Position numbers and translations under genes: made by a program. From positions 1-64,000 of the forward strand of contig NZ_AUCU01000004.1 in NCBI RefSeq assembly GCF_000429925.1: a DNA stretch of 64,000 nucleotides, in the 5' to 3' direction. Below are positions 348 to 63,897 of this stretch, one piece after another; within the stretch, counting starts at the first letter, position 1, and each line of letters starts with the position of its first letter. Source of the stretch: Desulfatirhabdium butyrativorans DSM 18734 (GTDB lineage: Bacteria; Desulfobacterota; Desulfobacteria; Desulfobacterales; Desulfatirhabdiaceae). The notes beneath the pieces were generated by a model. The model was not told the origin of the DNA. It saw nothing but the letters and a program-made list of their open reading frames with translations, and ran no database searches.

Positions 348-2477
348 ATGGCGTTAAACCTGGAAGCTGTCGGAAAACCGATCGGACCGGTCGATAAGAG
401 CTACACCTGGAAAGATGTGGTGCTCTACTCGCTGGGCGTCGGTGCGGGGTTTTCCGAACTCGACTACTGTTACGAAAAACGTCTCAAGGTCCTGCCCAGC
501 TTTTCCATTGCCGCAATCTTCGATTTTCTCGCCCATATCGGCGCTACATCCAATGTCAATCTCGCCGGAATTCTGCACGGCGAGCAAAGCCTCGTCTTTC
601 ACAATCCGATCCCCCCGGAAGGTACGCTGAGCACCAAGGGCCGAATCGTCAAATACTATGACAAGGGGCCTGGCAAGGGAGCTCTGGTCATCGGGGAAAG
701 CGACACCTATCACTCGAACGGCAAGAAACTGTTCACCAGTGTCATCACCATTTTCGCTCGCCTCGACGGTGGGTTCGGCGGCGAGAACGCTCCGAAGAAG
801 GAATTCGTCTTTCCGGATCGAGAGCCCGATATCGTGGTGGACGACAGCCCCAGTGTCAATCAACCGCTTCTCTACCGGCTTTCCGGTGATATCTTCGATC
901 TGCACGTCGATCCGGAATTCGCCAAAATGGCCGGATTCGAAAAGCCCATCATGCACGGGCTGTGCACCCATGGATTTGCCTGCCGCGCCCTGGTCAACGC
1001 TCTCATTCCCGGCATGCCCGAAAAAGCTCGGCGTATGGATTGCCGTTTCACCAAAACCCTCTATCCTGGAACGCCTATTCGGACGCTCATTTGGAAAGTC
1101 GATGAAGGAAAGGCCTTGTGGAAAACGCTGAATGCGGAAACGGGAGATGTGGTCATCGATCACGGTGTCTTCGAATATGGGGATCCGGTGCGGGAACGGC
1201 TGGATTTTTCAGGGCAGGTGGCCGTGGTGACGGGGGCGGGCGCCGGTCTGGGACGCGTCTACGCGCTGGAGCTTGCCAAACGGGGTGCCAAGGTGGTGGT
1301 GAACGATCTTGGTGCGGCACGAGACGGAACGGGACCGGCATCGAGTTCGGCCGCCGATCGGGTGGTGGATGAAATTCGGGCCGCCGGTGGCGAGGCCGTT
1401 GCCGACTACAACAATGTCGCCACCCGGGAAGGGGGGGAAGCCATCATCCGAAGCGCGCTCGATGCCTTTGGAACGGTGGATATTCTGATCAACAACGCCG
1501 GTATCCTTCGGGACAAGAGCATGGTCAAGATGGAGCCCGAAACCTGGAAGGCGGTCATCGACGTTCACTTGAACGGGGCCTACCATGTGACCCGACCGGC
1601 CTTCAAAGTGATGAAGGAGAAGGGCTACGGACGGATCGTGATGACCACATCGGCCGCAGGGCTTTACGGGAATTTCGGTCAAACGAACTATGCCTCCGCA
1701 AAGATGGGCTTGGTCGGCTTCATGAACACCCTGAAGCTCGAAGGCGAAAAATACGGCATCCGGGTGAATACGGTGGCGCCATTGGCCGCTTCCCGCTTGA
1801 CCGAAGATGTGACACCTCCGGAGCTTTTCGTTCGGATGAAGCCGGAATACGTCGCACCGATCGTTCTGGTGCTATGCTCGAAGCAATGTCCGGTGAACGG
1901 CCGCATCTACAATGCCGGGATGGGGTTCTACAACCGGGCGGCCATCTGGACGGGGACGGGGGTTGTCCTGGGAAAAGGGAGTGTGCCGAGTGTCGAAGAG
2001 ATTCGGGATCGCATGCAGGCGATCGCATCGCTCAAAGGGGCAAAGGTCTACCATCAGTTGAACGAACAGGTGGCGGACGTTTACGCCGCAGTTCTCAATC
2101 CGAAGGATGTCGTGGATGCCTCGACGGAAGAGGAGAGCGGATCTGCATTCACCTCTGCGAAAGCCGTGTTCGACGCCATGCCGGGAGCTTTCCGGGCGGA
2201 TGCGGCCAAAGGCATCGATGTGGTCTTTCAATATCGGATTTCCGGAGATGGGGGAGGTGATTGGTTCTGTGCGGTGAAGGACGGGCAGTGCCAGGTAGCC
2301 GCCGGACTTTACGAAAAGCCGACATGCACCTTTCTCATGGCTTCCGGAGATTTCCTGGATATGATGAACGGAAAGCTTTCGCCCATGCAGGCTTACACCG
2401 GCGGGAAACTTCGGATCGAAGGCGAGATCATGAAATCCCAGTTGATCGAGAAGTTGTTCCGGATCGATCGGAAATAG
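348..2477 (+). CDS. Trifunctional MaoC hydratase - SDR dehydrogenase - SCP2 protein (MFE-2-like, permuted order)
   Basis: This 709-residue protein has three parts. Residues about 1-280 form a MaoC/2-enoyl-CoA hydratase 2 double hot-dog, with the hydratase-2 signature RLSGDIFDLHVDPEF (D181 and H186 in the catalytic spacing) followed by KPIMHGLCTHGF. Residues about 285-590 form a short-chain dehydrogenase with cofactor loop TGAGAGLG (295-302), NNAG and a catalytic S435-Y448-K452 set. Residues about 600-709 are an SCP2 sterol-carrier domain. The parts predict hydration and (3R)-hydroxyacyl-CoA oxidation. Eukaryotic MFE-2 has the order SDR-hydratase-SCP2, so this order is permuted. The usual Asn-Pro of the GDxNPLH motif is Phe-Asp here. 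ATG 348 was chosen over 345 because AGGAGG at 336-341 is better spaced from it. It is first in a cluster with thiolase, acyl-CoA dehydrogenase and dienoyl-CoA reductase genes. Confidence 0.85.
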   Translation: MALNLEAVGKPIGPVDKSYTWKDVVLYSLGVGAGFSELDYCYEKRLKVLPSFSIAAIFDFLAHIGATSNVNLAGILHGEQSLVFHNPIPPEGTLSTKGRIVKYYDKGPGKGALVIGESDTYHSNGKKLFTSVITIFARLDGGFGGENAPKKEFVFPDREPDIVVDDSPSVNQPLLYRLSGDIFDLHVDPEFAKMAGFEKPIMHGLCTHGFACRALVNALIPGMPEKARRMDCRFTKTLYPGTPIRTLIWKVDEGKALWKTLNAETGDVVIDHGVFEYGDPVRERLDFSGQVAVVTGAGAGLGRVYALELAKRGAKVVVNDLGAARDGTGPASSSAADRVVDEIRAAGGEAVADYNNVATREGGEAIIRSALDAFGTVDILINNAGILRDKSMVKMEPETWKAVIDVHLNGAYHVTRPAFKVMKEKGYGRIVMTTSAAGLYGNFGQTNYASAKMGLVGFMNTLKLEGEKYGIRVNTVAPLAASRLTEDVTPPELFVRMKPEYVAPIVLVLCSKQCPVNGRIYNAGMGFYNRAAIWTGTGVVLGKGSVPSVEEIRDRMQAIASLKGAKVYHQLNEQVADVYAAVLNPKDVVDASTEEESGSAFTSAKAVFDAMPGAFRADAAKGIDVVFQYRISGDGGGDWFCAVKDGQCQVAAGLYEKPTCTFLMASGDFLDMMNGKLSPMQAYTGGKLRIEGEIMKSQLIEKLFRIDRK

Positions 2478-2785
2478 GCGATGGGCGATGGGCGATAGGC
2501 GATAGGCGATAGGCGATAGGCTATAGGCTATAGGCGATGGGTGATGGGTGATGGGTGATGGGTGATGGGTGATGGGCGGGAGGTAGGTTGAAAGATAGGT
2601 GAAGGATGAAAGAGGGGTAGGGGGAAAAGTTTGAAGAATTGGAAAAGGTTGGACATATCGCCGATACCATCGACCGGCTTTCAACCGCTTTTCTTCTGAC
2701 TCCTGACTCCTGACTCCTGACTTCTGACTTCTGCCCCCGATTTTCGCCATTTACATCGAATGACTCTACAGGGAGGACCATCGAA
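2478..2785. repeat. Intergenic tandem heptamer arrays (GGCGATA/GGTGATG and ACTCCTG types)
   Basis: This 308-base gap starts with about 14 tandem 7-base units (variants of AGGCGAT and GGGTGAT) at roughly 2475-2580. A second array of ACTCCTG/ACTTCTG units lies at about 2697-2738. The gap ends with the ribosome binding site GGGAGGA of the next gene. No coding potential is evident. Confidence 0.85.
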
Positions 2786-5152
2786 ATGATTGGTATCACA
2801 TCCTTTGGCGCATATATTCCCCGATTGCGATTAAGCCGCATGGCCGTCTATCAGGCCATGGGATGGTTTGCACCGGCCCTTGCTCTGGCGGCTCAGGGCG
2901 AGCGCTCCATGTGCAACTGGGACGAAGACAGCCTGACGATGGCTGTGGCAGCCAGCCGAGACTGCTTGAAAGGCATCGATAAAAAGGCACTGGATGCCGT
3001 CTATCTGGCATCCACCACCCTGCCGTTTGCAGACCGTCAGAACGCGGGTGTCGTGGCTGCAGCCCTGCATCTGGGTCCCCAAGTTCTGACGGCCGATATC
3101 ACCTCCTGCCAGCGGGCTGCGACGACAGCGCTGATTACGGCTCTGGATGCCGTTCAGGGGGGATCGAAGCACGCCGTTCTCGTTACCGCATCGGACAAGC
3201 GGGAGACGAAGGCCGCCTATTTTTATGAGCTGTGGTTCGGAGACGGAGCCGCAGCTGTCTGTGTCGGCGATGAGAACGTCATCGCGGAATTCAAAGGGTC
3301 CTATTCCGTTTCCCGGGATTTTGTGGATCACTACCGGGGTGCCCTCAATCCGTACGATTATACCTGGGAAGAACGATGGGCCAGGGACGAAGGCTATGCG
3401 AAGATCATTCCGGAGGCGGTGAACGGTCTGATGCAGAAGCTCGGCATTACGATGAACGATGTGGACAAGCTGGCCTTTCCGTGTCTGTTCAAGGCGGAGC
3501 ATCGGAACATCGCCAAAATGCTGGGGGCATCCCCCGAAAAAGTGGTCGACACCCTCTTCGATGTCTGCGGAGAAACCGGCTGCGCCCATAGCCTGATGAT
3601 GCTGGTATCGGCCCTGGAAAACGCCAGGCCCGGTGATCGGATTCTGGTTGCCGGTTTCGGGCAGGGATGCGATGCCCTGTACTTTCAGGTGACGGAAGCC
3701 ATCACGAAGCTGCCTCGAAGAAACGGGGTGAGTGGATCGCTTGCTCAGAAGAAGACCACAGACAACTACCTGAAGTTTCTGAAGTTCCGCAACCTCATCC
3801 AGACCGAGATGGGAATCCGGGCAGAGGCGCCGACCCAAACGGCCATGACGACCCTGTATCGGAAAAACGACATGATTCTCGGCCTTGTGGGCGGGAAATG
3901 CCGGGAGTGTGGAACGCCGCAGTTCCCGAAAATGGACGTCTGTGTCAATCCCGAATGCCGGGCCGTGCATACCCAGGAAGATTATGAATTCGCCGATGTT
4001 CCGGCAACCATCAAGACGTTTACCGGCGACCTGTTGGCGGTGTCGGTCGATCCGCCCGCCAAATACGGCATGATCCAGTTCGAAGGCGGTGGACGGTTCA
4101 TGGCCGATTTTACGGATTGTGAGCTCGAGGAGCTTCAGGTCGGTCTGCCGATGGTGATGACCTTCCGCAAACGAAGCGAGGACAAGACCCGGGGGTTCGT
4201 GAACTATTTCTGGAAGGCCATGCCGGCCCCCGGGGCGGCCGAGATGATGAACCGCATTTCCTTTGCCGGTCGGGTGGCCGTCATCACCGGAGCCGGTGCC
4301 GGACTTGGGAGGGCCTATGCGCTCGAGCTCGCCCGTCGAGGCGCCAAAATCGTGGTGAACGATCTCGGATGTACCCGGGATGGGTCCGGTGTCGAAAGCA
4401 ACTCTGCCGCCCAGCGGGTGGTCGATGAGATCCGGGCATTGGGAGGGGAGGCCGTCGCGAACACCGATTCGGTCACCACCCCGGAAGGGGGACAGAACAT
4501 CGTGCAGGCCGCCATCGATGCCTTCGGCCGTGTGGATATTCTGATCGCCAATGCAGGGATCCTGCGAGACAAGTCCTTCGTCAACATGGAACCCGAGAAC
4601 TGGTACGCCGTGCAGGATGTTCATCTGAACGGTGCCTATCATGTGGTGCGCCCGGCATTTGCGGCCATGAAAGAGCAGGGATTCGGTCGGATCATTCTGA
4701 CGACATCCTCGGCCGGACTCTATGGAAACTTCGGACAGACGAACTATTCGTCCGCCAAGATGGCCCTGGTGGGTTTGATGAACGCCCTCAAACTCGAAGG
4801 CATGAAATACGGCATTCAGGTCAACACGGTGGTTCCGATCGCAGCCTCCCGTCTGACGGAAGATGTCATGCCTCCCGACATTCTCGAACGCTCCAAACCC
4901 GAGTATGTCGCTTCCCTCGTCACCTATCTCGTCAGCGATGCATGTACGGAAAACGGCCGTATCTTTACAGCCGGCATGGGGCATTACAGCCGGGCGGCTG
5001 TCGTCACCGGAAAGGGAAGCGCCCTGACACGGGACGGGGAGCCGGTGGAACCCGAAACGATTCTCGAGCATTGGGATGAAATCGACGGCCTGGAAGGCGC
5101 AAAGGAGGAGGGCAGCCTGACCGAGGCGTTGATGGCGATGATGCAGGCGTGA
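2786..5152 (+). CDS. HMG-CoA synthase-like / DUF35 zinc-OB / SDR fusion protein
   Basis: This 788-residue protein has three regions. Residues 1-310 resemble the thiolase-fold HMG-CoA synthase family, with a candidate nucleophile Cys108 in TSCQRAATTAL and GFGQGCDALYF near the end. Residues about 325-480 are a DUF35-type rubredoxin-like zinc ribbon (C372, C375, C386, C391) plus OB fold, the partner module of many thiolase-like enzymes. Residues about 492-720 are an SDR with TGAGAGLG (501-508) and Y654/K658. HMGCS-like plus DUF35 pairs include the BbsAB thiolase of anaerobic toluene degradation and archaeal HMG-CoA synthase complexes, so acyl-CoA condensation or cleavage is likely; the substrate is unknown. 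The usual FHxP histidine motif of HMG-CoA synthase is not obvious. The SDR is very like that of the preceding gene, which suggests duplication and domain shuffling. GGGAGGA precedes the ATG. Confidence 0.8.
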   Translation: MIGITSFGAYIPRLRLSRMAVYQAMGWFAPALALAAQGERSMCNWDEDSLTMAVAASRDCLKGIDKKALDAVYLASTTLPFADRQNAGVVAAALHLGPQVLTADITSCQRAATTALITALDAVQGGSKHAVLVTASDKRETKAAYFYELWFGDGAAAVCVGDENVIAEFKGSYSVSRDFVDHYRGALNPYDYTWEERWARDEGYAKIIPEAVNGLMQKLGITMNDVDKLAFPCLFKAEHRNIAKMLGASPEKVVDTLFDVCGETGCAHSLMMLVSALENARPGDRILVAGFGQGCDALYFQVTEAITKLPRRNGVSGSLAQKKTTDNYLKFLKFRNLIQTEMGIRAEAPTQTAMTTLYRKNDMILGLVGGKCRECGTPQFPKMDVCVNPECRAVHTQEDYEFADVPATIKTFTGDLLAVSVDPPAKYGMIQFEGGGRFMADFTDCELEELQVGLPMVMTFRKRSEDKTRGFVNYFWKAMPAPGAAEMMNRISFAGRVAVITGAGAGLGRAYALELARRGAKIVVNDLGCTRDGSGVESNSAAQRVVDEIRALGGEAVANTDSVTTPEGGQNIVQAAIDAFGRVDILIANAGILRDKSFVNMEPENWYAVQDVHLNGAYHVVRPAFAAMKEQGFGRIILTTSSAGLYGNFGQTNYSSAKMALVGLMNALKLEGMKYGIQVNTVVPIAASRLTEDVMPPDILERSKPEYVASLVTYLVSDACTENGRIFTAGMGHYSRAAVVTGKGSALTRDGEPVEPETILEHWDEIDGLEGAKEEGSLTEALMAMMQA

Positions 5153-5357
5153 ACCGGAAAAGAGTCAGCAGTGGACAGTCGGCAGTGGGCGGTGGGCGGT
5201 GGGCAGTATGGCCCGTCACTTTAACGACGTTCATGAAGGAACACCGGAATTTCACCTACGGGGGTGGCGAAAGCCCTTCGCCATGGAAATGTATCCTTCT
5301 GACTTCTGACTTCTGGCTCCTGACTTCTGATTTCTGTTTTCTCAAGGAGAACAAGCA
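5153..5357. repeat. Intergenic heptamer repeats (CAGTGGG and ACTTCTG types)
   Basis: Variants of GTCGGCAGTGGGC are tandemly repeated at about 5163-5213. CTTCTGACTTCTG-type units occur at about 5297-5338. The segment separates two genes of one cluster and ends in the ribosome binding site AAGGAGAA of the thiolase gene. Confidence 0.8.
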
Positions 5358-6566
5358 ATGGCTTCTGGCATACGCGATAAAGTGGCGATTTTGGGTATGG
5401 GATGCACCCGCTTCGGCGAGCGTTGGAACATGGGTGTGGAAGAATTGATGATCGAAGCCTTTCAGGAATGCCTGACGGATGCCGGCATCGAACGAAACGA
5501 CATCCAGGCGGCATGGTTTGGGACCTGCATGGAGGAGATCGGTATCGGAAAGAGTGCCATCGGACCGGCCGCAGCACTGAAACTGCCGTTTATTCCGATC
5601 ACCCGGGTGGAAAATTTTTGCGCTACCGGTACGGAAGCGTTTCGGGGAGCCTGTTATGCCGTTGCCGCTGGAGCATGCGATATCGCTCTTGCCATCGGTG
5701 TCGAAAAATTAAAAGACACCGGTTACGGGGGGCTTCCCAATTTCGGGTCCAATGCCGGAACCCTCAACTGGCAGTGGTGGCCGAACCTGACAGCGCCCGG
5801 CTCCTTTGCTCAGTTGGCTTCGGCCTATGCGGCCAAGCATCGGATCAAGGATCAGGACCTGAAGCGAGCTATGGCGCATGTTTCCGTGAAGAGCCATGCC
5901 AACGGCGCGCTCAACCCCAAGGCCCATCTGCGCAAACCCATCACCGAAGATCAATGCATTTCCTGTCCGATGATCGCCTCTCCTCTCGGACTCTACGATT
6001 GCTGCGGCGTCAGCGATGGAGCGGCATGCGCCATCGTGACCACACCGGAGATCGCCAAACGTTTCGGAAAAAAGGACATCGTCTCCGTCAAAGCCCTGCA
6101 GCTTGCCTTGAGCAGCGGTGAGGAAATGGGATTCAACCAGTGGGATGGCGACCATTTCATGACGACTTCCCGCTGCAGCATTAAAGCCTATGCCGAGGCG
6201 GGCATCACCAATCCCCGGGAGGAGATCAGCATGATGGAAGTGCATGACTGCTTTTCCATCACGGAACTGGTGACCATGGAGGATTTGCACATTTCGGAAC
6301 GGGGCAGGGCGGTGTTCGATATTCTGGACGGATTTTACGATAGGGATGGAAAAGTGCCCTGCCAGGTGGACGGCGGACTCAAATGCTTCGGTCATCCGAT
6401 CGGGGCATCCGGAATTCGGATGCTGTACGAAATGTATCTGCAGCTTCTGGGCAGGGCCGACAAGCGGCAATTGCCCAATCCGAGATTCGGCCTGACGCAC
6501 AACCTGGGCGGTTTCCCCTTCCAGAATGTCTGCAGTATCGCCATCATCGGTCGGTATGAATGCTGA
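5358..6566 (+). CDS. Thiolase family protein (SCP-x-type acetyl-CoA acyltransferase)
   Basis: This is a 402-residue thiolase of the SCP-x/lipid-transfer type, probably cleaving or forming a 3-ketoacyl-CoA. The nucleophilic Cys88 lies in VENFCATGTEAFRG, the EVHDCFS motif is present, and the catalytic His346 lies in CFGHPIGASG. The usual C-terminal CxG loop is replaced by HNLGGFPFQN, as in SCP-x-type thiolases. It follows the HMGCS-like/DUF35/SDR fusion, and DUF35 modules often associate with this thiolase class, so the two products may form a complex. The start has AAGGAG at good spacing. Full length for the family. Confidence 0.85.
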   Translation: MASGIRDKVAILGMGCTRFGERWNMGVEELMIEAFQECLTDAGIERNDIQAAWFGTCMEEIGIGKSAIGPAAALKLPFIPITRVENFCATGTEAFRGACYAVAAGACDIALAIGVEKLKDTGYGGLPNFGSNAGTLNWQWWPNLTAPGSFAQLASAYAAKHRIKDQDLKRAMAHVSVKSHANGALNPKAHLRKPITEDQCISCPMIASPLGLYDCCGVSDGAACAIVTTPEIAKRFGKKDIVSVKALQLALSSGEEMGFNQWDGDHFMTTSRCSIKAYAEAGITNPREEISMMEVHDCFSITELVTMEDLHISERGRAVFDILDGFYDRDGKVPCQVDGGLKCFGHPIGASGIRMLYEMYLQLLGRADKRQLPNPRFGLTHNLGGFPFQNVCSIAIIGRYEC

Positions 6567-6721
6567 CGAAGAAACCGGGCGCGGATCTTCCGTCATGGTG
6601 CTTCGGTAGGTTCTGAATCCCGGCTCGCGCCGGTGGAATGGATCGAGGCGGTGTGCTTGGGATGCACGACGCATCCTGGACTTTTTTAATGAACTCTCAC
6701 ACAAAGCCAGTGGGATGCAAG

Positions 6722-6812: not shown

Positions 6813-7730
6813 TTATTGCAGGGCACGGTCCAAGTCCTGTCGAAACGATTCGAGGGAAGGGGTCTTCAGGGCAATCCGATGCAAGGTTTTCAGAACGAAC
6901 ACGTTGTCGATGCGATCGATATCCTTGAGAAAAGAAACAGGAACCTCATCGAACCGTTGTACAAGGATATCGATCAAGGCTTCTTTCGATGCGGTCAGTA
7001 AGCCTTGCTGGATTCCTTGTTGAATACCTTGTTGAATACCTTGCTGCATGCCTTGCTGAATACCTTGCTGCATGCCTTGCTGAAACCCTTCTTGTTTGAT
7101 GATGTCGTATGCAGCAGACTCAACCATGATATCCCTCCTTCGAGATAAGATTTCCAATGGCAATCTGTCGGAAACCAGACCGGCCAAAATTGTCATGGAT
7201 GTGAGCATGTCCGCCTTGGTAGGTCTTGGAATGGGTTCATCATAGATCATCCGTTCGACCTGTGGTGTCAATTCCGGCCCGTGTTTGAGCAAAGGGACAA
7301 AGGGAAGCAAACAGTGAGGCCACTGTTCGACGGCTACTCGAGCATCCATTTCCGAGAAACGAACCAGGCGATATCGAAAAGAAACTTCCTTGTCCTCATA
7401 ACAGTCAGTGGCGCGGGCATCCGGTTTTAGCAATAAGATGGCACTGATGACAGGGAGATTTTTCGAGATGAGGTGTCGGATACGGTAATCCAGAAGATGC
7501 AGGGGCACATGCGGATGCCACTGGGTTTGGATTTCGAGGATGACGATCAGTTGCTGACCGGTGGAATCGGTGACCAGCATCGGGAAATCGCTCCGCTTTA
7601 CGCTGACGGTTTCCTGGGGCAAATTTTCAATCAACGTCGATTGATCGACGTCCAGGTGCAGGAAGCAGCGTAGAATTTGATCCCTGCAGGTATCGATGAG
7701 GACCTTGGCAGCAACGTCGTAATGGTGCAT
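6813..7730 (-). CDS. Rpn-family recombination-promoting nuclease / transposase-like PD-(D/E)XK protein
   Basis: About 305 residues from ATG at 7730, which has GGGGAGG just upstream; a longer in-frame start at 7796 lacks this. The N-terminal half, including FPMLVTDSTGQQ and IVILEIQTQW, fits the PD-(D/E)XK core of Rpn/YhgA-type proteins (D, then E-x-Q). These are DNA nucleases linked to recombination and anti-phage roles. Residues about 215-245 are a glutamine-rich run of QQGM/QQGI units encoded by tandem 12-base repeats. The gene lies opposite to and between two parts of the acyl-CoA cluster, so it may be a late insertion. Rpn proteins commonly carry such a repeat before the C-terminal helices. 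Confidence 0.75.
   Translation of the reverse strand: MHHYDVAAKVLIDTCRDQILRCFLHLDVDQSTLIENLPQETVSVKRSDFPMLVTDSTGQQLIVILEIQTQWHPHVPLHLLDYRIRHLISKNLPVISAILLLKPDARATDCYEDKEVSFRYRLVRFSEMDARVAVEQWPHCLLPFVPLLKHGPELTPQVERMIYDEPIPRPTKADMLTSMTILAGLVSDRLPLEILSRRRDIMVESAAYDIIKQEGFQQGMQQGIQQGMQQGIQQGIQQGIQQGLLTASKEALIDILVQRFDEVPVSFLKDIDRIDNVFVLKTLHRIALKTPSLESFRQDLDRALQ
7003..7086 (-). repeat. Seven tandem 12-bp units inside the Rpn gene
   Basis: Seven consecutive 12-base units of the form CCTTGYTGNATN (plus-strand reading) begin at 7003, 7015, 7027, 7039, 7051, 7063 and 7075. An eighth degenerate unit follows. They encode the repeated QQG(M/I) tetrapeptide. Being in frame, copy-number change would lengthen or shorten the protein without frameshift. 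Confidence 0.9.
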
Positions 7731-7837
7731 GATGCCTCCCCGGGTGTGCCATATCTGCTTCTTCAAGATGATCATCATCTTATCACAAGGAACCACTCCC
7801 GAAAAACGCTATTTTTTCATGTTGGAAACGAGGAATT

Positions 7838-8980
7838 ATGGAACTTCTTCAATATACCGAGGCCCATCGCCGCTTCCGTCAGAGGCTTCAGGCCTTTTTG
7901 GCTGCCGAAGTCATCCCCTATGTCGATCAATGGGAAGCCGATCACATTACGCCCAAATCCATCTGGCGCAAGATGGGGCAAAACGGGTTTCTATGCCCCA
8001 TGGTCTCGCCGGAATACGGCGGATTGGGGGGAGATTTTCTATACAGCGTCATCGTTGCCGAAGAAATGGCCAAGACACGACACACGGGGCTTGCCGCAAC
8101 TCTGCACTCCGATGTGGTGGTTCCGTATATCGAATCCTACGGAAGCGATGCCATCAAACGGCAGTTTCTCCCGGGGTGTGTCGATGGCAGCATCATCACG
8201 GCCGTCGCGATGACCGAGCCGGGTGCGGGAAGCGATCTGGCCGGGATGCAGACGACAGCGGAAGAAGACGGTGACTGGGTGATTCTGAACGGATCGAAGA
8301 CCTTCATATCCAACGGAATCAATGCCGATCTCGTCGTGCTTGCGGCCCGAGACCCCCAGGTCGAAAATCCGTATCAGGCCATATCGCTTTATCTGCTACC
8401 GGATGGCACCCCTGGTTTCAAACGGGGCAGACGGCTTGAAAAAATGGGATGGCACAGCCAGGATACGGCCGAGCTCTTTTTCACCAATTGCCGGATACCC
8501 GCCGCCTACCGGCTTGGCGAAAAAGGGATGGGGTTTCTGATGCTCATGGAAAAGCTGCAGCAGGAGCGGCTTGCCTGCGCAGTGGGTGCCATCGTTGCAG
8601 CCGAATCCATTTTGGCGTATACAATGGAATACTGCCGAACGACGAAAGCGAACGGAAAACCCCTTTCGAAGCGTCAGGCCATCCAGTTTGCCCTGGTGGA
8701 GATGGCAACCGAGGTCAAAATTGGGCGGACGTTCGTCGATCGGCTCGTGATGTCCCACATCGCCCGCGAGAACGTGGTGATCGAGACATCGATGGCCAAA
8801 TACTGGACCACCGATCTGGCCCGGCGGATGGCCGACCGTTCGATGGATGTGATCGGTGATTTCGCCATGCTGGAAGCCTGCCCGATTGCCAGGGCTTTTC
8901 GGGATGTCCGCGTCATGGCGATTTTTGCCGGAACCAATGAAATCATGAAAGGAATCGCAGCCAAGTTCATGGGGTTGTGA
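7838..8980 (+). CDS. Acyl-CoA dehydrogenase
   Basis: This 380-residue flavoprotein would oxidise an acyl-CoA to the 2-enoyl-CoA. The FAD-contact motif AMTEPGAGSDLAGMQT (about 124-139) and the NGSKTFISNG strand are intact. The usual C-terminal YEGT glutamate is absent (IFAGTNEIMKG). A glutamate at position 243 (QQERL) sits where long-chain and isovaleryl-CoA dehydrogenases carry their catalytic base, so this is probably an LCAD/IVD-like active site. It is followed at 15 bases by the dienoyl-CoA reductase. No clear strong ribosome binding site is seen (GAAACGAGGAATT precedes the ATG). Confidence 0.88.
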   Translation: MELLQYTEAHRRFRQRLQAFLAAEVIPYVDQWEADHITPKSIWRKMGQNGFLCPMVSPEYGGLGGDFLYSVIVAEEMAKTRHTGLAATLHSDVVVPYIESYGSDAIKRQFLPGCVDGSIITAVAMTEPGAGSDLAGMQTTAEEDGDWVILNGSKTFISNGINADLVVLAARDPQVENPYQAISLYLLPDGTPGFKRGRRLEKMGWHSQDTAELFFTNCRIPAAYRLGEKGMGFLMLMEKLQQERLACAVGAIVAAESILAYTMEYCRTTKANGKPLSKRQAIQFALVEMATEVKIGRTFVDRLVMSHIARENVVIETSMAKYWTTDLARRMADRSMDVIGDFAMLEACPIARAFRDVRVMAIFAGTNEIMKGIAAKFMGL

Positions 8981-8995
8981 GGGTGAAGGAGAACC

Positions 8996-10996
8996 ATGTA
9001 TCGTTATCTGTTTAGTCCCATCAAGATCAATCGGGTCGAAATCAAGAACCGCATCGCCTATCCGGCGCTCGGGTTGCTCTATTCCTACGACAGCAAGCTC
9101 AATGACCGGTATTACCACTATTTCCGGGAAAAGGCCCAGGGAGGAACGGGCCTCATCACGGTGGGCCCGGTCGGCGTGGATTTTCTCGGATCGGGTCTTC
9201 TGGCGCTTTCGCTGGCCAAAGACGAAGCCATACCGGATTTTCGAAAACTGGCAGGCATCATCCAGAGCGAAGGCGCCAGGGCGTGGGTGCAGCTCTTTCA
9301 TGCGGGGGCCTACTCGCATCCCATGCTGATCAACAACGAAACGCCGATCGCGCCGTCGGCCGTCTTCTGTGCCTATTCGCGTGTCACCCCCCGGGAGATG
9401 ACCCTCGAAGACATCCGTACCGTTCAGGACAGTTTCGTGAAAGCCGCCTTGCGCGCAAAGGAAGCCGGATTCGACGGCGTCGAAATCATTGCATCCGCCG
9501 GGTACCTCATCACCCAATTCCTTTCGCCCATCAAGAACCTGCGCACGGATGAATACGGCGGTCCATTCGAGAACCGGATCCGCTTTGCCCGGGAGCTGAT
9601 CGAACAGATGCGGGCAGCCGTGGGTCCCGATTATCCGATCACGATCCGCATGGCAGGAAACGACTTCGTTCCCGGGAGCACCACCGACAGGGAAACCCCG
9701 CAAATTGCCAAAGTCTATGAAGCTGCCGGAGTGGATGCCATCAACATCACGGGTGGATGGCACGAGTCCCGTGTGCCGCAATTGCCGATGGAGCTTCCGC
9801 GATCGGCTTACGCCTATCTGGCGCTCAACATCAAACAGGCGGTGAATGTGCCGGTGATGGCATCCAACCGCATCGCCGATCCCGATACGGCCGAACGGTT
9901 GCTCAAGGACGGCTATGCCGACATGGTCAACCTGGGTCGGGTGCTCATCGCCGATCCCGAATGGCCGAAGAAGGCCTATGAGGGAAGGGCTCAGGAAATC
10001 CGACCCTGTGTCGCCTGCTCCCAGGGATGCACGGATCAGGTCTTCAGTGGAAAACCGGTTTTCTGCATCGGCAACCCGAGGGCAGGCTTCGAAGGGGATC
10101 GGATCGTTCGAAAAACCGACTCTCCGAAAAAGGTCATGGTGATCGGAGCCGGCCCCGGTGGGCTCGAGGCTGCCGTCACGGCTGCCCAAATCGGGCATCG
10201 GGTCGATCTGTTCGAGAAAGGGTCGGACATCGGAGGCCAGATCTGGATGGCGGGGGCTCCGCCCCACAAACGGGAGATTCTGGAATATATCCGGTATTAC
10301 CAGGCGATGATCCGAAAATACAATATACCGGTTCACCTGAACACGACCGTCGACAGCCACCTTGTCGAGATCAACCGGCCCGATTTCGTCATTGTTGCCG
10401 AAGGGGCCGAGCCGCTCATTCCTCCGATTCCGGGAATCGACCACCCTTCGGTGTTGTCGGCATGGACGGTACTGCGGGACAATCCTTTTCTCGGGAAGAA
10501 AGTAGCCATCATCGGCGGAGGAGCCGTGGGGCTCGAGACGGCACTCTTCGTTGCGGCAAAGGGGGTGATCAACCCGGAAATTCTCTATTTTCTGTTTACC
10601 TACGATGCAGAGCCGCCCGAACGGTTGAAGGAGCTCATGTTCAAGGGTTCCTGCACGGTGACGGTGTTCGAGATGCTGCCCAAGGCCGGGGCTGATGTGG
10701 GTAAGTCTACGAAGTGGATCTTGAACGACAACCTCAAACGCTATGGGGTAAAGGTGCGGACATCCACCAAGGTGGTTGCGATCGATGCCGGGAAGATCAC
10801 CTATGAATTCGAAGGCAACACAGGAGAGGAAACCTTCGATTCCATCATCGTGGCATCGGGTTCCCGATCGGTGAAAACGCTCTCCGAGCAAGCGGCTACC
10901 TGGGGAATCCCCTATCGGGTCGTCGGGGACTGCATCAAACCGGGGAAACTCAACGACGCCATTCACGGCGGTTTCCTGGCGGCGATGGATATTTGA
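8996..10996 (+). CDS. 2,4-dienoyl-CoA reductase-type NADH:flavin oxidoreductase (OYE-like + FAD/NAD domain)
   Basis: This 666-residue protein has the FadH architecture. An FMN TIM barrel (1-330) carries Tyr170 (SAGYLITQF) and His256 (GGWHESRV), matching the E. coli FadH active-site pair. A 4Fe-4S cluster site is formed by C338, C341, C345 and C357. The C-terminal region has two nucleotide-binding motifs, GAGPGG (384-389) and IIGGGAVG (about 500). It would reduce a dienoyl-CoA intermediate, or the reverse, allowing unsaturated or ring-derived chains to enter beta-oxidation. AAGGAGAACC precedes the ATG. It ends the cluster, with a strong hairpin 54 bases downstream. Confidence 0.88.
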   Translation: MYRYLFSPIKINRVEIKNRIAYPALGLLYSYDSKLNDRYYHYFREKAQGGTGLITVGPVGVDFLGSGLLALSLAKDEAIPDFRKLAGIIQSEGARAWVQLFHAGAYSHPMLINNETPIAPSAVFCAYSRVTPREMTLEDIRTVQDSFVKAALRAKEAGFDGVEIIASAGYLITQFLSPIKNLRTDEYGGPFENRIRFARELIEQMRAAVGPDYPITIRMAGNDFVPGSTTDRETPQIAKVYEAAGVDAINITGGWHESRVPQLPMELPRSAYAYLALNIKQAVNVPVMASNRIADPDTAERLLKDGYADMVNLGRVLIADPEWPKKAYEGRAQEIRPCVACSQGCTDQVFSGKPVFCIGNPRAGFEGDRIVRKTDSPKKVMVIGAGPGGLEAAVTAAQIGHRVDLFEKGSDIGGQIWMAGAPPHKREILEYIRYYQAMIRKYNIPVHLNTTVDSHLVEINRPDFVIVAEGAEPLIPPIPGIDHPSVLSAWTVLRDNPFLGKKVAIIGGGAVGLETALFVAAKGVINPEILYFLFTYDAEPPERLKELMFKGSCTVTVFEMLPKAGADVGKSTKWILNDNLKRYGVKVRTSTKVVAIDAGKITYEFEGNTGEETFDSIIVASGSRSVKTLSEQAATWGIPYRVVGDCIKPGKLNDAIHGGFLAAMDI

Positions 10997-44379: not shown

Positions 44380-44904
44380 CTGTCTTACCTCTGTTATCCT
44401 CATGGTGGAATGGTTGCAATCCAGGAGCCTTACGCTCCTGAAACGAAAAACGGGATATCGGTGAAAGCCCGACATCACGATTGGATCGACACGGCGGTTC
44501 GGATCATTCGTTCGATGTTACCGCCGATAAACACCGAAAGGCGTGGGTTATCCGATGGACGAGGATCCGCCCAGCCCTTACGATTTTGCGCTTCTGCGTT
44601 TTCACGATGAATGTTCATAGCGAGGGGCGGGACCCCTGTGAATGAAAATGTAGCCCGGGTTTCCAAACCCGGGACGAGATGTAGTCCGTTTATTCTTGTT
44701 TATAAGCGGAATCTGATCGAACCCGGGATTGGAATCCCGGGCTACTTTATTTTATGATAATCCCCCATGCATCGGCGTGAACCCCCGATTGCATGAAAGT
44801 CGCTTGACCGAGCCTGGTAAAACAGGAGTCATCCGCTTTTATTCTGACTCCTGACTCCTGACTCCTGACTTTCGTAGGAATACCGGTTTCCGTTCAGGTA
44901 CGGC
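44380..44904. repeat. Gap inside the trmD-rplS order with a nested CCCGGG palindrome
   Basis: Bases 44650-44673 and 44722-44744 are inverted copies; each arm is itself a 20-base palindrome (CCCGGGTTTCCAAACCCGGG type). An ACTCCTG heptamer array lies at about 44851-44875 and a GGTTTCCGTTCAGGTAC module near 44885. No gene is seen. TrmD and L19 genes are usually adjacent in this order, so repeats may have accumulated here. Confidence 0.8.

Positions 44905-63679: not shown

Positions 63680-63897
<218 letters not shown>

Follow-up and report, generated by a model that had tools for sequence, protein, structure and literature searches.

What can a protein do in which an HMG-CoA synthase (HMGCS)-like domain, a DUF35 domain and an SDR are joined in one chain, and with which partners does it act? 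The gene that raises this question lies in a window of 64,000 nucleotides from Desulfatirhabdium butyrativorans DSM 18734 (contig NZ_AUCU01000004.1), the start of which is a contig end. It occupies exactly positions 2786-5152 of the + strand as a single ORF of 788 aa, with an ATG start and an AGGGAGG stretch upstream; a promoter and terminator scan of the window did no better than chance. The N-terminal domain (2786-3805, +, aa 1-340) is HMGCS-like of the archaeal type, as judged from NCBIfam models, PDB comparison, a residue alignment and the fold. NF003274 matches it at E 2.8e-63 with 214 bits, below the cut-off of 244, and TIGR00748 reaches 146 bits against a cut-off of 353. The second domain (3833-4225, +, aa about 350-480) is a ChsH2-type DUF35, made up of a rubredoxin-like zinc ribbon with the ligands Cys372, Cys375, Cys386 and Cys391 and of an OB fold. 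Its Pfam scores fall just below the cut-offs (zf-ChsH2, 22.9 against 23.2 bits; OB_ChsH2_C, 24.8 against 27.1 bits), and it matches 6esq_E in the PDB at 1.2e-10. The C-terminal segment (4250-5149, +, aa 489-788), in which Pfam finds adh_short, is an SDR of the MFE-2/HSD17B4 type, resembling (3R)-3-hydroxyacyl-CoA dehydrogenases, with Ser641, Tyr654, Lys658 and Asp526 as key residues; in the PDB it is matched best by peroxisomal MFE-2/HSD17B4 proteins, and it is 47% identical to 1gz6 and 1zbq. A structure model of the monomer (mean pLDDT 85.1, pTM 0.68) was compared with known structures by VIA-align. Residues 1-339 superpose on 6esq_I with Z 46.3 and rmsd 1.8 over 334 residues, so the HMG-CoA synthase fold is retained; residues 1-349 match PhlA-type chains at Z 44-45, and the SDR part of the model matches MFE-2.

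The same fusion is present in 55 genes among the 80 best loci of a named-genome scan, a set that favours close relatives and fused genes because it was chosen as the best from 578 loci or more; 41 of the 55 show an SCP2 domain too. The original prediction that three normally separate modules share one chain is thus borne out by the domain matches and by this search for further examples. Since the fusion recurs in so many genes, it is no artefact, and a sequencing error is ruled out by its presence in many independent assemblies, including the Desulfosarcina alkanivorans chromosome (L051; L numbers denote loci from other genomes). In a 94-row tree of the HMGCS-DUF35 part, the root of which is unsure since the outgroup does not form one side of any branch and long branches meet, 56 fused rows fall within a group of 63, and the fused state changes four times or more. 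Among the 48 complete fused rows on the same tree, the presence of SCP2 changes six times or more; seven complete fusions, the window protein among them, lack SCP2. Within the window's order, the HMGCS-DUF35 part was found in 135 of 340 sampled genomes (E 1e-60); among the matches listed, a hand count gives at least about 88 of the 340 with a frame of 690 aa or more, and for most of these the extra length may be other than an SDR. A phylum sample gave 103 of 395 genomes, and the window genome has one HMGCS-DUF35 gene. Duplicate loci were dropped (L033, equal to L071; L034, equal to L066; L038, equal to L100), as were HMGCS stretches below 250 aa and rows for thiolase, SDR or DUF35 that were too short or below 38% identity to the window's module. 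This 38% filter left out three of 77 thiolase rows (one each from L051, L042 and L047).

The catalytic residues of HMG-CoA synthase are missing from the first domain. The positions of Glu82, Cys114 and His238 in 6esq_I, the last of which we take to be the active-site His, correspond to Thr77, Gln109 and Pro232 in the window protein. None of the 92 aligned family rows keeps any of the three: the Glu82 position holds Thr in 90, Val in one and a gap in one, the nucleophile Cys is found in 0/92, and the His238 position is Pro in 89 and His in none. Four plasmid relatives from Pseudomonadota and Actinomycetota also lack the Glu, Cys and His. The remaining modules are invariant at their key positions, with the zinc Cys4 kept in 90/90 DUF35 rows, the Ser, Tyr, Lys and Asp of the fused SDR in 55/55 rows, and the Cys, HDC and GHP-His of the neighbouring thiolase in 74/74. 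Because the catalytic Glu, Cys and His are lost while the residues of the other modules do not vary, the HMGCS-like part is probably non-catalytic as an HMG-CoA synthase. It is this combination, the complete loss in 92/92 rows beside invariant thiolase, fused SDR and zinc residues, that is new here. Fusions of DUF35 to thiolase-superfamily, SDR and SCP2 domains were mentioned in general terms in 2010, in the available portion of PMC2954200, and the portions available of PMC5109826, PMC7773648, PMC8084838 and PMC10398937 do not describe this fusion. A literature search, with most subscription journals outside it, found no paper on the fusion's function or on the lost HMGCS residues in this family.

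The genes on either side suggest a context. Upstream is an MFE-2 protein of 710 aa (345-2477, +), composed of a hydratase-2/MaoC domain, an SDR paralogous to the fused one, and SCP2. Directly downstream is a thiolase of the PRK06157/NF004810 group (5358-6566, +). It scores 692 bits, the cut-off being 403, and carries Cys88, His296-Asp-Cys298 and His346. Its PDB matches include 7yvy_A (2.9e-56), archaeal 6esq_A (1.5e-48), the SCP2-thiolase 6hsj_A (8e-38) and PhlC (9e-20 to 2e-21). An acyl-CoA dehydrogenase (7838-8980, +), probably of the same pathway, and a flavoprotein resembling OYE and 2,4-dienoyl-CoA reductase (8996-10996, +), perhaps of the same pathway, follow. Of the 80 named loci, many of them truncated, 35 contain a relative of the acyl-CoA dehydrogenase (at least 55% identity); relatives of the flavoprotein (at least 40%) are limited to L094, L097 and L071, which shares its record with L033.

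Leaving aside genes truncated at the end of a contig, adjacency is strongly conserved in other genomes. A thiolase directly follows 45 of the 46 fused genes with enough downstream contig, the exception being a shortened gene of 607 aa (L099). The thiolase at 5358-6566, already proposed as a possible partner in the original prediction, is therefore the likely partner on this gene-order evidence. A gene of the MaoC/SDR/SCP2 kind precedes the fused gene in 47 of 48 cases where the contig allows; in the exception (L068) the start was called too far upstream, and the MaoC-SDR-SCP2 gene is present. Unfused HMGCS-DUF35 genes are followed by a thiolase in 21 of 22 cases. In the remaining one (L110) the fusion is split in two, with the thiolase after the second part; the break, from 2444, lies between the HMGCS and DUF35 parts and leaves ORFs of 327 and 602 aa, and it may be real or an assembly frameshift. 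A free SDR of this type, matching the window's first SDR at 58-62%, is found nearby in L122, L124, L125 and L126. L103 and L104 (the latter from Syntrophus) have the same operon without a fused SDR, so the fusion is not essential. Plasmid relatives were drawn from 45 matching records, of which five loci were fetched and four aligned (the Azoarcus HMGCS gene was left out). The Sphingomonas paeninsulae and Variovorax paradoxus plasmids encode SDR, MaoC, HMGCS-OB and thiolase separately, in four genes side by side, and in S. paeninsulae the SDR and MaoC are 44% and 40% identical to those of the window. The Azoarcus, Rhodococcus and Sphingobium plasmids have HMGCS-OB and thiolase among other neighbours. 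The identifier K12405 denotes HSD17B4. On an island of M. massiliense, HMGCS, thiolase and a K12405-type SDR lie in a row, according to a passage of PMC4263727. These unfused arrangements argue that the fused SDR works with the HMGCS-DUF35 and thiolase pair. In L106, from Chloroflexi, two consecutive HMGCS-DUF35 and thiolase pairs are found (1322-6608 and beyond), and after each pair comes an SDR gene that is only distantly similar (30-31%).

Several known systems can be compared with this locus. The archaeal acetoacetyl-CoA thiolase/HMGCS/DUF35 complex (6ESQ, 6ET9) has the same three component folds. Here, in contrast, the HMGCS Glu, Cys and His are lost, HMGCS and DUF35 form one chain, an SDR is added, and the setting is beta-oxidation rather than mevalonate. 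PhlACB (PpATase, a Friedel-Crafts acyltransferase, 5M3K) has, as in the window, a DUF35 protein and an HMGCS-like partner, PhlA, without Cys and Glu; the thiolase-fold subunit is the active one, and catalysis is by PhlC residues only (PMC6392133, available portion). PhlA is called an inactive member in an excerpt of PMC2954200. Unlike the window proteins, PhlACB consists of three separate subunits without a dehydrogenase and acts on phenolic substrates, and its thiolase is only distantly alike. In CtShy-CtSal and ChsH2-Ltp2, DUF35 links the preceding enzyme to the cleaving enzyme, as we propose here, and a DUF35-tied hydratase is docked on a thiolase-fold retro-aldolase (PMC12329534, in part). 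The window has instead a dehydrogenase, a thiolase with the usual residues and an extra HMGCS-like domain; the partner keeps Cys88, HDC and GHP, which fits a thiolase (Sal and Ltp2 are outside this alignment). Peroxisomal MFE-2/HSD17B4 with SCPx likewise comprises MaoC hydratase 2, SDR, SCP2 and an SCP2-type thiolase, whereas in the window these domains are shuffled over three genes; to our knowledge, DUF35 and HMGCS-like parts are absent from the eukaryotic MFE-2/SCPx enzymes. The benzoylsuccinyl-CoA thiolase BbsAB consists of DUF35 and thiolase proteins and, as far as we know, has no HMGCS-like part. The thiolase partner matches its chain 7pxp_C at 1.5e-39, and BbsB reads HDAF in the alignment where the window thiolase reads HDCF.

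Homologues of all three components of thiolase/HMGCS-like/DUF35 complexes are thus encoded together in the window, and the fusion can be read as a variant of these complexes, with complex formation predicted. The reading we favour, to which we give a probability of about 0.6, is a DUF35-scaffolded thiolase complex with a tethered (3R)-dehydrogenase for the preceding step, in which the HMGCS-like part performs no HMGCS chemistry. The fused HMGCS-like and DUF35 domains, which correspond to PhlA and PhlB and to the HMGCS and DUF35 subunits of the archaeal complex, would hold the next-door thiolase, the counterpart of PhlC, with the HMGCS-like part serving as a structural and CoA-ester-binding partner. 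The MaoC hydratase of 345-2477 would make (3R)-3-hydroxyacyl-CoA, the fused SDR would use NAD+ to convert it to 3-oxoacyl-CoA, and the tethered thiolase would cleave the product. We likewise infer that the direction is catabolic, that NAD+ is used, that the hydroxyacyl intermediate is 3R and that the acyl substrate is branched or bulky. The neighbours checked in other loci are mixed: TetR regulators, AMP-binding ligases and acyl-CoA dehydrogenases, which adjoin several relatives, favour this reading, and a glycosyltransferase in L093 and polysaccharide export genes in L126, which are not catabolic, count against it. Dehydrogenation followed by thiolysis, the order put forward in the original prediction, is the natural order of the two activities, and the gene suggests that the fusion couples the final two steps of a cycle that degrades fat. 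The window genome encodes five ORFs with a classical 3HCDH domain, so the proposed R-route would be a second, parallel one, perhaps for branched or bulky acyl groups. Some relatives have a CoA-transferase III neighbour. That of L063, the only one of four compared with the PDB, is closest to alpha-methylacyl-CoA racemase and lends thin support to a branched substrate; a protein 58% identical to it is encoded elsewhere in the window genome, and none of the four neighbours matched an NCBIfam member above its cut-off. A search of the window genome (97.3% complete) for a PFL-like glycyl radical enzyme gave no match, so alkyl- or benzylsuccinate intermediates look unlikely. The fusion also points to partners of the poorly known thiolase group PRK06157.

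Care must be taken with the idea of a scaffold, as the HMGCS-like domain has 57 positions with a conservation of 95% or more, which seems more than a passive scaffold would need. A less likely alternative is that the domain has acquired a new catalytic role, for example the transfer of acyl groups or the hydrolysis or condensation of a CoA ester, based on Cys233, His182, His268 and Trp194-Glu195. The CoA-binding synthase fold is preserved, and Cys233, His182, His268 and Glu195 are found in 89, 88, 89 and 92 of the 92 rows, respectively. Cys233, His182 and His268 are conserved in the family and absent from 6esq_I and PhlA, and the same is seen for Trp194-Glu195. Against such a role, the known active-site Cys, Glu and His are gone from every row, the Cys233 position is non-Cys in the four aligned plasmid relatives, and PhlA shows that a partner without catalytic activity can be enough.

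Equally doubtful is a more ambitious reading, in which the locus would encode a beta-oxidation metabolon: an inactivated HMG-CoA synthase would contribute to a shared CoA-ester cavity through which the SDR product reaches the thiolase unreleased. In this view the archaeal HMGCS complex would have been the foundation of a channel between dehydrogenase and thiolase, fused in Thermodesulfobacteriota and unfused in several other phyla. Channelling was also part of the original prediction. Measurements on CtShy-CtSal, the closest analogue with published tests, revealed no significant channelling, and for other DUF35 complexes the question was left open in print, in the available part of PMC12329534. 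The fusion offers a natural test of whether those other complexes channel intermediates.

An improbable reading is that the proteins form a synthetic acyltransferase like PhlACB, carrying out C-acylation or chain extension with the SDR as a reductase. It has in its favour the same three components and the PhlA-like loss of residues, and thiolases and SDRs catalyse reversible reactions. The surroundings speak against it, since MaoC hydratases accompany the fused genes and the TetR regulators, AMP-binding ligases and acyl-CoA dehydrogenases mentioned above adjoin several relatives. Moreover, the thiolase is nearer to 7yvy_A, 6esq_A and 6hsj_A than to PhlC, and Asp526 fits NAD rather than NADP.

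Very unlikely is the view that the fused SDR was copied recently from 345-2477 or kept alike by gene conversion. The genes are adjacent, and their SDRs align over 293 aa with 66% identity. The original prediction, which described them as nearly identical in long stretches, was right that GLYGNFGQTNY and ASRLTEDV are common to both but overstated the likeness: DNA identity is 65.6% (45% at third codon positions), and the longest identical run is 15 nt, the same as the permuted mean of 15.0 (p 0.47). Of 90 four-fold sites that encode the same amino acid in both, 41% have identical codons against 35% expected by chance, so that synonymous sites are near saturation, and the DNA-level comparison found no conversion tract between the two. 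The shared motif is typical of the family: human HSD17B4 has GIYGNFGQANY in the corresponding position (1zbq alignment), and the motif's Tyr is found in 55/55 fused and 54/54 MFE-type SDR rows. In a 114-row tree, whose root falls on one very long branch and is unsure, each of the window's two SDRs joins its counterparts from elsewhere, the fused one with fused SDRs of other genomes and the other with MFE SDRs, with neither label a single clade across the whole tree. A tree of 46 of these rows, chosen from 25 loci, separates them in the same way, the fused SDR joining that of L071 (95/89) and the other joining two MFE SDRs (96/89). Forcing the window SDRs together on these 46 rows lowers the log-likelihood by 34.9 (AU test, p = 0.0395), a result that is only moderately strong. 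Trees and DNA comparison together rule out a recent duplication or conversion in the window, and on sequence grounds the fusion is old and widespread. The MFE and fusion SDRs of L092, L094 and L100 do cluster by genome, with support of at least 100/98 in the 46-row tree, and so does the L090 pair in the 114-row tree; in L092, L094 and L100, therefore, conversion or repeated, separate duplication may have occurred.

Least likely of all is a genuine HMG-CoA synthase of mevalonate or leucine-related metabolism, fused by chance, which the strong NCBIfam matches might suggest and which the loss of Glu, Cys and His and the scores below both cut-offs rule out. Many genomes of the window's order have proteins that score as HMG-CoA synthase, yet none of the rows examined has its catalytic residues, and annotation of such HMGCS-like proteins as mevalonate enzymes would be wrong.

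Some smaller features of the window can be added. Between the thiolase and acyl-CoA dehydrogenase genes is a 327-aa ORF on the - strand (6813-7796) with a QQG repeat, which may resemble Rpn/PD-(D/E)XK proteins; it had no Pfam match at 1e-3, and the ORFs selected from the other 100 loci include no counterpart. The gap upstream of the fusion gene is 308 bp, compared with 34 bp in L033. Period-7 tandem repeats with the units GGCGATG, CTGACTC, GCAGTGG, CTTCTGA and AGTCAGG lie in intergenic gaps at 2477-2578, 2696-2733, 5168-5207 and 5296-5336, and further ones are found at 44844-44870 and 63683-63716.
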